From Nocardioides ginsengisegetis (lineage in GTDB: Bacteria; Actinomycetota; Actinomycetes; Propionibacteriales; Nocardioidaceae), in assembly GCF_014138045.1 (NCBI RefSeq), contig NZ_JACGXA010000001.1, forward strand, positions 2,775,001 to 2,839,000: a DNA stretch of 64,000 nucleotides. The letters are read 5' to 3'. A program made the position numbers and the translations under genes. Each line of letters opens with the position of its first letter. Positions within the stretch are counted from its first letter, which is position 1. Below, piece after piece: positions 19,713-57,452 of the stretch. A model generated the notes under the pieces. The model made no database searches, was not told the origin of the DNA, and was given only the letters and a program-made list of their open reading frames with translations.

Positions 19713-25486
<5,774 letters not shown>

Positions 25487-32717: not shown

Positions 32718-32867
32718 TGGCGCCCGCGCGCGTGGGCGCCCTGGTCAACGGGAGCGGTGAGCTGTGAACCCTTTCCCTGCCCGGGTCGGTTCATGGCTCA
32801 CCGCCGGGTCGACCCGGCGGTGGGTGGTGAACCATTTCCCGGTCGGGTTCGGTTGCTGGCTCACCGC
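32718..32867 (+). repeat. Intergenic repeat element, copy 1
   Basis: About 150 bp between smpB and the M23 peptidase gene. It contains a GC-rich hairpin (GGCGCCC...GGGCGCC), then arms CGGTGAGC and GCTCACCG (32755-32762 and 32796-32803) with inner GAACC/GGTTC pairing. A 24-bp perfect palindrome follows, centred at 32810/32811 (32799-32822), and then a second diverged copy of the GTGAACC-TTTCC...TGGCTCACCG unit. The 32 bases at 32749-32780 are identical to the inverted copy at 55184-55215. No coding potential is seen. It resembles a REP- or MITE-like element; the rest of the 228-bp intergenic region has nothing else obvious. Confidence 0.75.
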
Positions 32868-55096: not shown

Positions 55097-55254
55097 GCGG
55101 TGAGCCATCAACCAAATCCCACCTGGAAAAGGTTCACCACCCACCGCCCGTCCGACCCGACGGTGAGCCATCAACCGAACCGAGCAGGGAAAGGGTTCAC
55201 AGCTCACCGCTCCCGCCGCCAGGGCGCCCGCGCATGCGGGCGGCGCGGGCGCCA
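55097..55254 (-). repeat. Intergenic repeat element, copy 2 (inverted relative to copy 1)
   Basis: The reverse complement of this stretch aligns with 32718-32867. It shares a 32-bp identical core (55184-55215), a GC hairpin (GGGCGCC...GGCGCC), two GTGAACC-TTTCC units and TGGCTCACCG ends. The central palindrome is diverged here. It lies in the gap between the TetR gene (ends 55022) and the original end of the HAD gene (55289). 55023-55096 shows nothing else recognisable. Confidence 0.75.
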
Positions 55255-55325
55255 CAGTCGGCCGGCAGTTGCGCCGACTCAACCCCTCTCAGCCCGGCAG
55301 TTGCGCCAGTGAGACTTGTCTCGGT

Positions 55326-55510
55326 GTCGTGGAGGACGTGCTGACCCGAGTTGCGCCCTGTCGTCGCTGACTGACTTTGAGTCGATTCGATCGCGCGTTC
55401 TCCACGACCCAGCTCGATGCGCATTCAGGGCGCGCCGGCCGGGCTCGTGACTTGATAGGAGCCTGGCTGAGGTCTCATCACTGGTTTGTCCGTGACCCGG
55501 CTCGGCGCGC
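55326..55510 (+). ncRNA. Predicted IS110 bridge RNA
   Basis: Stem-loop 1: 55326-55341 pairs with 55393-55408 over 16 bp (two G-U wobbles). Its 51-nt loop holds AGTTGCGCC (55349-55357), identical to the left flank plus core C (55299-55307), and GAGTCGAT (55379-55386), complementary to core A plus the right flank (56647-56654). Stem-loop 2: 55430-55443 pairs with 55496-55510 (14 bp, bulged T 55502). Its loop holds ATAGGAGC (55455-55462), identical to the right end plus core C (56639-56646), and GTCTCAT (55472-55478), which pairs with the left end GTGAGAC (55309-55315, one G-U). Target loop before donor loop matches known IS110 bridge RNAs. Transcript ends are not determined. Confidence 0.82.
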
Positions 55511-55537
55511 TGTCCCTGTTGAAAGGACGGCACCAGC

Positions 55538-56632
55538 ATGACTCACAACCACACACAGATCGAGTCCGCCCAGGTCGGGATCTACGGCGGCGTGGACACC
55601 CACCTGGACTTCCACGTCGCGGCCGCGGTCAACGCACTCGGCGCGCTGCTGGGCACCGCGGTCTTCGCGACCACGGTCCAGGGCTATGCCGAACTACTGG
55701 CCTGGCTCCGCGCCTGGGGACCACTGGCCCAGGTCGGGGTCGAGGGAACCGGCTCCTACGGCGCCGGCCTGGCCCGTCACCTGCACCGCCACGATGTCGA
55801 GGTTCTCGAGATCAACCGGCCCGACCGGGCCAGCCGCCGACGCCGCGGGAAGACCGACGCCTACGACGCCGAGGCAGCCGCCCGGACCGCGTTGGCCGGT
55901 CACGCCCGAGCCGCCAAGATCAACACCGGGGCCGTGGAGTCGCTGCGGATGCTGAAGCTGCAACGCGACTCCGCGGTCAAGCAGCGCACCGCCACGCTCA
56001 ACCAGATGCACCAGCTCAGGGTCACCGCGCCCCAAGAACTCCGCGAACAACTGACCGGCCTGACCAAACACACCCTGGCCACCCACTGCGTGCGGTTCCG
56101 CGTCACCCGCGACACCAACAGACTCACCGACCCCGTCCAGGCCGCCAAGAAGGCCCTGCATGGACTGGCCCGCCGAGTCCTGGCGCTCACCGCGGAGATC
56201 ACCGAACTCGACGCCGACATCGCGGCCCTGACCAGGGCCATCGCCCCGGCCACCAGTGCCGCGGCCGGTGTCGGGGCCCAGACCGTGGCACAACTGCTGA
56301 TCGCCATCGGCGAGCAACCCGAACGGTTCCACAGCGAGGCCGGCTTCGCCGCCCTCTGCGGCACCAGTCCAATCCCGGCCTCCTCGGGGAAGACCCAACG
56401 TCACCGCCTCAACCGCGGCGGGAACCGACAAGCCAACAGTGCCCTGCACATGGCCACCCTCAACCGGCTCTGCCACCACCCACCGACCAGGGCCTACATC
56501 GCCGCCCGCACCACCGATGCCAAGTCGGACCCCCACCTGCGCCGCAAGCTCAAGCGCTACCTCGCCCGCGAACTCTTCACCCTGCTGCGACAAGACCTAC
56601 GAGCCCTCAACACCCCCGACATCGCGGCTTGA
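55538..56632 (+). CDS. IS110 family transposase (DEDD recombinase)
   Basis: A 364-residue recombinase. The N-terminal RuvC-like domain carries a DEDD tetrad readable as Asp20 (YGGVDTHLDFHV), Glu69 (VGVEGTGSYG), Asp107 and Asp110 (KTDAYDAEAAAR). The C-terminal Tnp domain has CGTSPIPASSGKTQRHRLNRGGNRQANSALH, where Ser282 or Ser283 is the candidate nucleophile. A coiled-coil segment (about 190-230) links them. All catalytic residues are present, so the element may be active. Ribosome-binding site GAAAGGA lies about 14 bases upstream of ATG. Confidence 0.95.
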   Translation: MTHNHTQIESAQVGIYGGVDTHLDFHVAAAVNALGALLGTAVFATTVQGYAELLAWLRAWGPLAQVGVEGTGSYGAGLARHLHRHDVEVLEINRPDRASRRRRGKTDAYDAEAAARTALAGHARAAKINTGAVESLRMLKLQRDSAVKQRTATLNQMHQLRVTAPQELREQLTGLTKHTLATHCVRFRVTRDTNRLTDPVQAAKKALHGLARRVLALTAEITELDADIAALTRAIAPATSAAAGVGAQTVAQLLIAIGEQPERFHSEAGFAALCGTSPIPASSGKTQRHRLNRGGNRQANSALHMATLNRLCHHPPTRAYIAARTTDAKSDPHLRRKLKRYLARELFTLLRQDLRALNTPDIAA

Positions 56633-56636
56633 CGCG

Positions 56637-57452
56637 TCATAGGAGCATCGACTCGACGGGGGTGACGGGCTGACCCACCCAGTCCACGACGTCGGCGATC
56701 GACTCGACCACGCGGGTCGGGCGGTAGGGGAAGTGCTCGACGTGCTCGGCCTTGGTGGAGCCGGTCGTGACCAGGATGGTGCGCAGGCCCGCCTCGAGGC
56801 CGCTGATGATGTCGGTGTCCATCCGGTCGCCGATCATCACGGTCGTCTCGGAGTGCGCGTCGAGGCGGTTCAGCGCGCTGCGCATCATCAGCGGGTTGGG
56901 CTTGCCGATGTAGTAGGGCTTGCGGCCCGTGGCGGTGCTGATCAGCGCGGCGACCGAGCCGGTCGCGGGCAGGGTGCCGTGCACGCTCGGCCCGCTGACG
57001 TCGGGGTTGGTCGCGATGAAGCGGGCGCCCGCCTCGATCAGGCGGATCGCGCGGGTGATCGCCTCGAAGGAGTAGGTGCGGGTCTCCCCCAGCACGACGT
57101 AGTCGGGGTCCCGGTCGGTCATCACGTAGCCGATGTCGTGCAGGGCCGTGGTCAGCCCGGCCTCGCCCACGACGTACGCCGTGCCGTGCGGACGCTGGTC
57201 GGCGAGGAACTGCGCGGTGGCCAGCGCCGAGGTCCAGATCGCCGACTCGGGGACGTCGATGCCGCTGCCGAGGAGCCGGGCGCGGAGGTCGCGCGGGGTG
57301 AAGATCGAGTTGTTGGTGAGGACCAGGAAGCCGAGCCCGGACTCCTTGAGCCGCTCGATGAACTCCTGCGCGCCCGGGATCGGCACCTCCTCGTGCACGA
57401 GCACGCCGTCCATGTCGGTCAGCCAGGTCTCCACGGAACGCGAGGGGTTCAT
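56637..57452 (-). CDS. HAD-IIA family phosphatase (NagD-like), 3' end replaced by IS110
   Basis: A 271-residue HAD hydrolase. Motif I is WLTDMDGVLVHE (nucleophile Asp and Asp+2), motif II LVLTNNS, motif III Lys in YIGKPNPLMM, motif IV MIGDRMDTDIISGLEAG. The catalytic set is complete; NagD relatives dephosphorylate nucleotides or sugar phosphates. The last codons (ATG CTC CTA TGA) come from the IS right end. Joining 55307 to 56648 across the element gives ESMAQLPG and TGA in frame, so the native protein had 274 residues. Loss of AQLPG in favour of LL is probably harmless. Confidence 0.9.
   Translation of the reverse strand: MNPSRSVETWLTDMDGVLVHEEVPIPGAQEFIERLKESGLGFLVLTNNSIFTPRDLRARLLGSGIDVPESAIWTSALATAQFLADQRPHGTAYVVGEAGLTTALHDIGYVMTDRDPDYVVLGETRTYSFEAITRAIRLIEAGARFIATNPDVSGPSVHGTLPATGSVAALISTATGRKPYYIGKPNPLMMRSALNRLDAHSETTVMIGDRMDTDIISGLEAGLRTILVTTGSTKAEHVEHFPYRPTRVVESIADVVDWVGQPVTPVESMLL

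Follow-up and report, generated by a model that had tools for sequence, protein, structure and literature searches.

Two IS110-family elements, IS621 and ISEc21, are among the closest described systems. In the cited passages of the IS621 work (PMC11208158), the cut in the top strands follows core position 9; once strands have been exchanged, guide bases 81-82 and 166-167 form pairs with the other DNA at its positions 6-7, and exchange was hindered in pre-handshake variants. The first core base is there said to be the less conserved of the two. For ISEc21, the cited passages of PMC11187229 place the targets, in some IS3 members, at the codons surrounding the second D of DDE. Here we describe an IS110-group element in a 64,000-nucleotide stretch of Nocardioides ginsengisegetis DNA (the window), in which positions 55308-55537 very probably specify a bridge RNA whose target loop is directed at the repeat AGTTGCGC-C-GACTC and whose donor loop is directed at the joined ends of the element. 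A bridge RNA in this left end had been proposed in an earlier sequence-only reading; the fold, the swapping of guides and stems among relatives, and the flanks of the element's copies all support it. Defined ends, five repeat-bordered copies, empty repeats, fitting stem arms and four guides that follow flanks and ends are all present. Because one loop matches the repeat bordering all five copies and the other matches the element's own ends, the RNA likely steers the element into that repeat.

The element and its gene are as follows.
55308..56649, + strand: IS110-group element, 1342 bp, beginning at the first base of the left end and closing with the right copy of the shared C, delimited by comparison of five copies
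55538..56632, + strand: IS110 recombinase, 364 aa (D20, E69, D107, D110, S283)

The recombinase carries both domains of the IS110 family, the DEDD RuvC-like domain (Pfam DEDD_Tnp_IS110, PF01548, 2.2e-22) and Transposase_20 (PF02371, 3e-18), each above its cut-off, and it matches the solved ISCro4 and IS621 recombinases by sequence (3.2e-09 and 7.5e-08). The catalytic D, E, D, D and S of the family are all found: E69, D107, D110 and S283 align with IS621, and D20, which lies in a VDTH motif outside that alignment, is assigned by motif only. Non-coding DNA amounts to 230 nt upstream of the gene and 17 nt downstream of its stop codon; with this long upstream non-coding end and short right end the element belongs to the IS110 group and not to IS1111. 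Five near-identical copies occur in the genome, and the recombinase protein is 100% identical in 5/5. Among records of named plasmids, all 1223 with a match fall below 60% identity, Streptomyces and Mycobacterium being among the top-ranked, and a scan of a collection of genome contigs returned one distant locus.

Several features of the surroundings are recorded here in their own right. A convergent gene at 56637-57452, which we take to be HAD-like, terminates within the element: its stop codon falls in the right end, and the insertion therefore altered the end of that protein. This neighbouring gene is present in 6/6 relatives; none of the six has an orthologous empty site beside it, and the repeat was found in 0/6 from 60 bases before to 400 bases after the stop codon. 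Another dispersed repeat, some 50 bp long (CGGTGAGC...CTCACCGC, with inverted ends), lies at 55098-55147, 55161-55210 and 32755-32804; it adjoins the target repeat, and partial matches to it occur at about twenty more places in the genome. Elsewhere in the window, at 20168-22675, a unit of 276 bp (92 codons) is directly repeated nine times, the copies being 67-73% like the first one; these are perhaps repeated HAMP-type domains of a sensor protein.

The sites that the element occupies, and the ends that it brings to them, can be read directly.
55299..55307, + strand: left target half AGTTGCGCC, its last base the shared core C; in 4/5 copies, one base off in the fifth
56649..56656, + strand: right target half CGACTCGA, its first base the shared core C; in 5/5 copies
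55264..55280, + strand: empty copy of the target repeat; the occupied copy lies 32 bp downstream
56639..56649, + strand: right-end donor sequence ATAGGAGCATC; 88/88 distinct insertions end in A, G or T followed by TC
55308..55312, + strand: left-end donor sequence AGTGA, which changes together with the right donor guide across 23 elements

Next to the element, the left flank reads CAGTTGCGCC in four of the five copies and CAGCTGCGCC in the remaining one. The left half AGTTGCGCC is also seen in unoccupied repeats, and the uninterrupted string GTTGCGCCGACTC (GTTGCGC-C-GACTC) has 20 unoccupied copies in the genome, compared with 1 for a reversed control. Allowing a spacer, GTTGCGC-N(0-8)-CGACTC has 26 genome matches, the 20 copies of GTTGCGCCGACTC among them, compared with 2 for the reversed control. 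These repeats stand singly, in 32-bp tandem pairs or in inverted pairs. Comparison of empty and filled sites thus places insertion at AGTTGCGC-C-GACTC, with the single base C shared.

The sequence-only reading had proposed a core CA, a bipartite target AGTTGCGC-CA-TCGACTC and a right donor guide GTCTCAT. There is a basis for this: CA is present at both junctions, GAGTCGAT pairs with ATCGACTC, and within the window element GTCTCA pairs with TGAGAC. The CA-T form of the target, however, is absent from the genome, whereas the version without the A and T is the one with 20 unoccupied copies; a search for GTTGCGCCATCGACTCGA gave 0 exact matches and, at up to 3 mismatches, 2 matches versus 7 for its reversed control. 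The supposed core A and the T after it are part of the element's right end and not of the target, since A, G or T and then T precede the right C in all 88 distinct insertions despite many different flanks (ATC 53, GTC 31, TTC 4); this count covers loci with TTGAC and TAGG[AG][GC]C in the right end and leaves the next three bases free. The GTCTCAT register, moreover, is lost in relatives. We therefore regard the reading in its unchanged form as very unlikely. Its core and target were misassigned because handshake bases, which match the element's right end, were taken for target guide.

It might also be supposed that the half-sites belong to the element, or that the copies spread together with the repeats, the match between guides and flanks being inherited and unused for targeting. 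The five copies do have near-constant half-sites, and a longer stretch of repeat sequence is common to L001 and L002 and again to L003 and L004. The flanks past the repeat nevertheless differ among the five: as the comparison of copies bore out, their wider surroundings vary, and the half-sites adjoining the element and the loops stay the same. The half-sites occur without the element at the 20 places noted above, and a longer string, GGCAGTTGCGCCGACTC, is found 17 times in the genome and in 6/143 other genus genomes searched. At E 1e-30 the recombinase has no relative in any of those six genomes, and the repeat therefore exists independently of the element. Relatives with other guides, in turn, occupy other sites that match them. 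Inheritance without targeting is thus an improbable account, and we retain the reading of the repeat as a target.

For comparison among relatives, 136 loci were scanned, many of them repeat retrievals of one place, which gave 29 distinct left ends selected by a loose form of the left donor guide. Six were omitted as near copies (L116, L117, L119, L153, L159 and L185), and the 23 kept, namely the window element and 22 left ends from recombinases 44-55% identical to it, were aligned. One of them (L160) is without a right end, so that n = 22 in some counts. The left flank of L206 and the target-loop boundaries of L183, L123 and L109 were set by hand. L206 also has, at 1205-1387, a tandem copy (51 bp apart) of the left end and the left part of the target loop.

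The left end is predicted to form two stem-loops.
55323..55410, + strand: predicted target-binding stem-loop in the MFE fold, arms ~55323-55341 and ~55391-55410
55432..55508, + strand: predicted donor-binding stem-loop in the MFE fold, arms ~55432-55444 and ~55496-55508

Folding of 55308-55537 confirmed the two long stem-loops (MFE -106.3 kcal/mol, z -3.08), and 0/200 shuffles were equally stable. A search of the left end against Rfam gave no family match. RNAalifold on a MAFFT alignment recovered 15 pairs only and blurred the stems; because a plain alignment blurs them, the arms were tested by swapping, each 5' arm being paired with every 3' arm. Across the 23 elements, own arms averaged -39.6 kcal/mol for the target stem and -36.9 for the donor stem, compared with -23.9 and -29.3 when swapped, and for either stem 0/20000 permutations reached the observed sum. 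The target guides lie in the first stem-loop and the donor guides in the second. The fold and the swap tests support the order originally proposed, in which the target loop precedes the donor loop and each left guide its right guide, as in known bridge RNAs. The letters first reported for the four guides do stand at the coordinates given. That all four can be read holds once they are corrected: the core, the bipartite target and the right donor guide had been misassigned.

The first loop contains the two target guides.
55349..55357, + strand: left target guide AGTTGCGCC, matching the left target half letter for letter
55377..55384, + strand: right target guide TTGAGTCG, pairing with CGACTCGA over 8 pairs, one of them G-U

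The 9-mer said to be identical to the left flank is so. Dinucleotide shuffling of the left end reproduces it in 12/5000 cases, and the pair of target guides in their order in 1/5000. The 8-mer said to be complementary to a core A plus the right flank stands in part: GAGTCGAT does pair with ATCGACTC, and its bases 55385-55386 belong to a predicted handshake guide instead. Across 22 elements, left target guides scored a mean of 19.5 against their own left flank and 11.1 against swapped ones, and right target guides 14.7 against 11.2. On each side 0/20000 permutations reached the observed sum (here, as in all the permutation tests, relatives are treated as independent although some are close kin), and wrong-strand controls were null (4566/20000 on the left and 14267/20000 on the right reached the sum). 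For the window element, no swapped flank equalled the score of its own flank on either side. The own flank was strictly the best match in 16/22 elements on the left and in only 7/22 on the right. Two loci with similar bridge RNAs in different genera, L098 and L158, have left target guides one base apart (CGTTTGCGC and CGTTTCCGC), and this one-base difference is repeated in their left flanks, a natural single-base retargeting.

The second loop contains the two donor guides.
55455..55462, + strand: left donor guide ATAGGAGC, an exact repeat of right-end bases 56639-56646
55478..55484, + strand: right donor guide TCACTGG, pairing with left-end AGTGA, the shared C and the C at target position 8

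The identity of the 8-mer ATAGGAGC with the element's right end was confirmed, and the left donor guide equals the own right-end 8-mer in 22/22 elements, in three variants (GAGC, GGGC and GACC), a match that is partly ascertained in that the relatives were found through a loose form of this guide. More distant relatives show one mismatch between left donor guide and right end, and a set of them has the right end ATAAGAGC in place of ATAGGAGC. The right donor guide pairs at 113/115 of the five left-end positions (10-14) in the 23 elements, a figure reached by 0/20000 shuffles, with changes on both sides of the pairing: TCACT/AGTGA, TCACA/TGTGA, TCGCA/TGCGA, TCTCT/AGAGA and TCCAT/ATGGA. The corrected anchor of the G097 donor heptamer was used in these counts. 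The guide had originally been placed at 55472-55478 (GTCTCAT), a candidate that we rejected: GTCTCA pairs 6/6 with TGAGAC in the window element, but in relatives that register gives 68/138 Watson-Crick and 8 wobble pairs, compared with the 113/115 of TCACTGG at 55478-55484.

A quite different account would make the left end a cis-acting or translation-control structure only, from which no guide RNA is produced. The fold does sit directly upstream of the recombinase gene, as such a structure might; a control structure, however, leaves unexplained why loop letters track flanks and ends strand by strand across elements, and we consider it extremely unlikely. The bridge RNA remains our reading of 55308-55537.

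Next to the right target guide lie two bases predicted to have a different partner.
55385..55386, + strand: predicted target-loop handshake guide (A, T), fitting right-end positions 8 and 7 (T, A)

This handshake role is predicted by analogy with IS621 as the cited passages of PMC11208158 describe it. In IS621 numbering, the shared C falls at position 9; at position 8 the target has C where the element has T. The target-loop A opposite position 8 fits the element's T in 22/22 elements and the target's base in 2/22; this A and the element's T are invariant, and the pair alone is no evidence because neither side ever varies. The donor-loop base, by comparison, fits position 8 of the target in 21 elements with 2 wobbles out of 23, versus 2 fits and 1 wobble out of 22 for the element. 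At position 7, 17 of 22 target loops fit the element and 2 more wobble (U-A, A-T and C-G pairs), versus 7 fits and 8 wobbles for the target; three related elements misfit. A wider set of 38 donor halves gave 31 Watson-Crick and 5 wobble position-8 pairs and 2 absences, one of the two failures (L105) resembling a false left-end hit. That set was drawn from 112 loci of at least 42% identity, of which 85 were tested, 10 had no recognised donor loop and 17 had no left-end hit. Because most targets carry A at position 8, 345/100000 shuffles equalled the observed fit, which varies in few lineages.

A shared core dinucleotide of the IS621 type is not found here: the right end reads TC in 88/88 insertions, and target position 8 is T in 2/22 elements with both ends and C in the window element. 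As a description of sequence, the one-base shared core (C) is firm. Whether the subfamily also works with it is a more tentative matter; we put slightly less than an even chance on the proposal that the first classical core position has become a handshake position, mismatched until exchange and paired only after it. No description of a one-base core was found in the cited passages of the bridge-RNA literature.

Flanks of each relative locus were translated separately, and ten of the 13 loci examined are inserted between D and N codons, in [Y/F]D/N...E, on both sides.
L117, L119, L121, L122, L124, L125, L159, L166, L224 and L225: relatives in [Y/F]D/N...E codons, read on both flanks

Of the others, L160, without a right end, reads D on its left flank, and L123 and L173 lie in TNGK[A/V]/ERF, one of the two with two extra left bases. 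Transposases of the IS3 and IS481 type carry YD-N..AE and TNGK-ER motifs, the E being catalytic. The 100 codons upstream of the relatives' sites matched the rve integrase core in 4/4 sent for search, and in part of the loci the target guides match these rve-domain transposase genes. In these relatives, then, a mobile element is directed against a conserved motif of a second mobile element. The codon-targeting habit was already known because it has been published for ISEc21, at an exact place that differs. Among the relatives, guides have been rewritten many times, toward dispersed repeats and toward the conserved codons of other mobile elements.

By analogy with IS621, the element would be excised as a circle whose junction forms a promoter.
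56629..56634, + strand: TTGACG, possible -35 box of a putative circle-junction promoter
55311-55316, + strand: GAGACT, possible second promoter box, 18 nt from TTGACG in the circle

GAGACT is a weak box, three of its six bases fitting the usual consensus. TTGAC precedes the right end in the 88 insertions, where it is part of the search motif; G381 is without it. Guided by the RNA, the recombinase would next recombine the circle with one of the repeats, as in IS621 and ISEc21, the left guides pairing with bottom strands and the right guides with top strands. On the IS621 model, top strands would be cut after the shared C and exchanged, and bottom strands would be resolved afterwards. The base before the shared C may be read in swapped fashion, the target loop fitting the donor's base and the donor loop the target's; such swapped position-8 pairs would form only after strand exchange, as a handshake.

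The element is a well-supported member of the IS110 bridge-RNA group, ordinary in kind, slightly unusual in guide layout and modestly informative about mechanism. It adds a predicted bridge RNA remote in sequence from the two solved IS110-family recombinases found. Its target, donor and handshake guides could be assigned by comparison with real empty sites and relatives, a prerequisite for reprogramming the enzyme. If the one-base core holds, a target would have to supply a single fixed C, which, should experiment agree, leaves one fixed base fewer in target choice; such elements would also offer a natural series for testing the directionality of strand exchange.

Set beside known systems, the element resembles IS621 of E. 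coli, as the cited passages of PMC11208160 and PMC11208158 present it, in its IS110 group, its left-end bridge RNA with (as predicted here) handshake guides, and the sequence in which its loops (target, donor) and its guides (left, right) follow one another. Insertion in dispersed repeats is common to both, 144/173 experimental IS621 sites lying in REP elements according to the same passages. It departs from IS621 in the core: those passages give IS621 a CT core in target and donor with handshake positions 6-7, whereas the window element shares only the C of position 9, and its position 8 is handshake-like together with 7. The recombinases, too, are only remotely similar (7.5e-08).

ISEc21, with its seekRNA, is likened here by description. 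The cited passages of PMC11187229 describe an IS110-family element with an upstream non-coding region in which the bottom-strand match comes before the top-strand match, and a transposase of intermediate size (a cluster of 345-385 aa, compared with 364 in the window element). They report no target-base duplication, as here, and they describe targeting of IS3-family transposases, as among the window element's relatives. The window element itself, unlike ISEc21, targets a dispersed repeat of non-coding type, and its relatives target YD/N codons whereas ISEc21, in those passages, targets codons of the second D.

A literature search found nothing on REP-associated IS110 elements in Actinobacteria, and we do not claim REP status for the window element's repeat, which stands singly or in 32-bp tandem or inverted pairs. 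The nearest parallels in habit are ISPa11, ISPpu9 and ISPpu10, which live in other hosts and in other repeats, theirs being REP. In the cited passages of PMC1525189, all copies of these elements lie in a dispersed short repeat (6/6, 7/7 and 7/7), as do 5/5 here.
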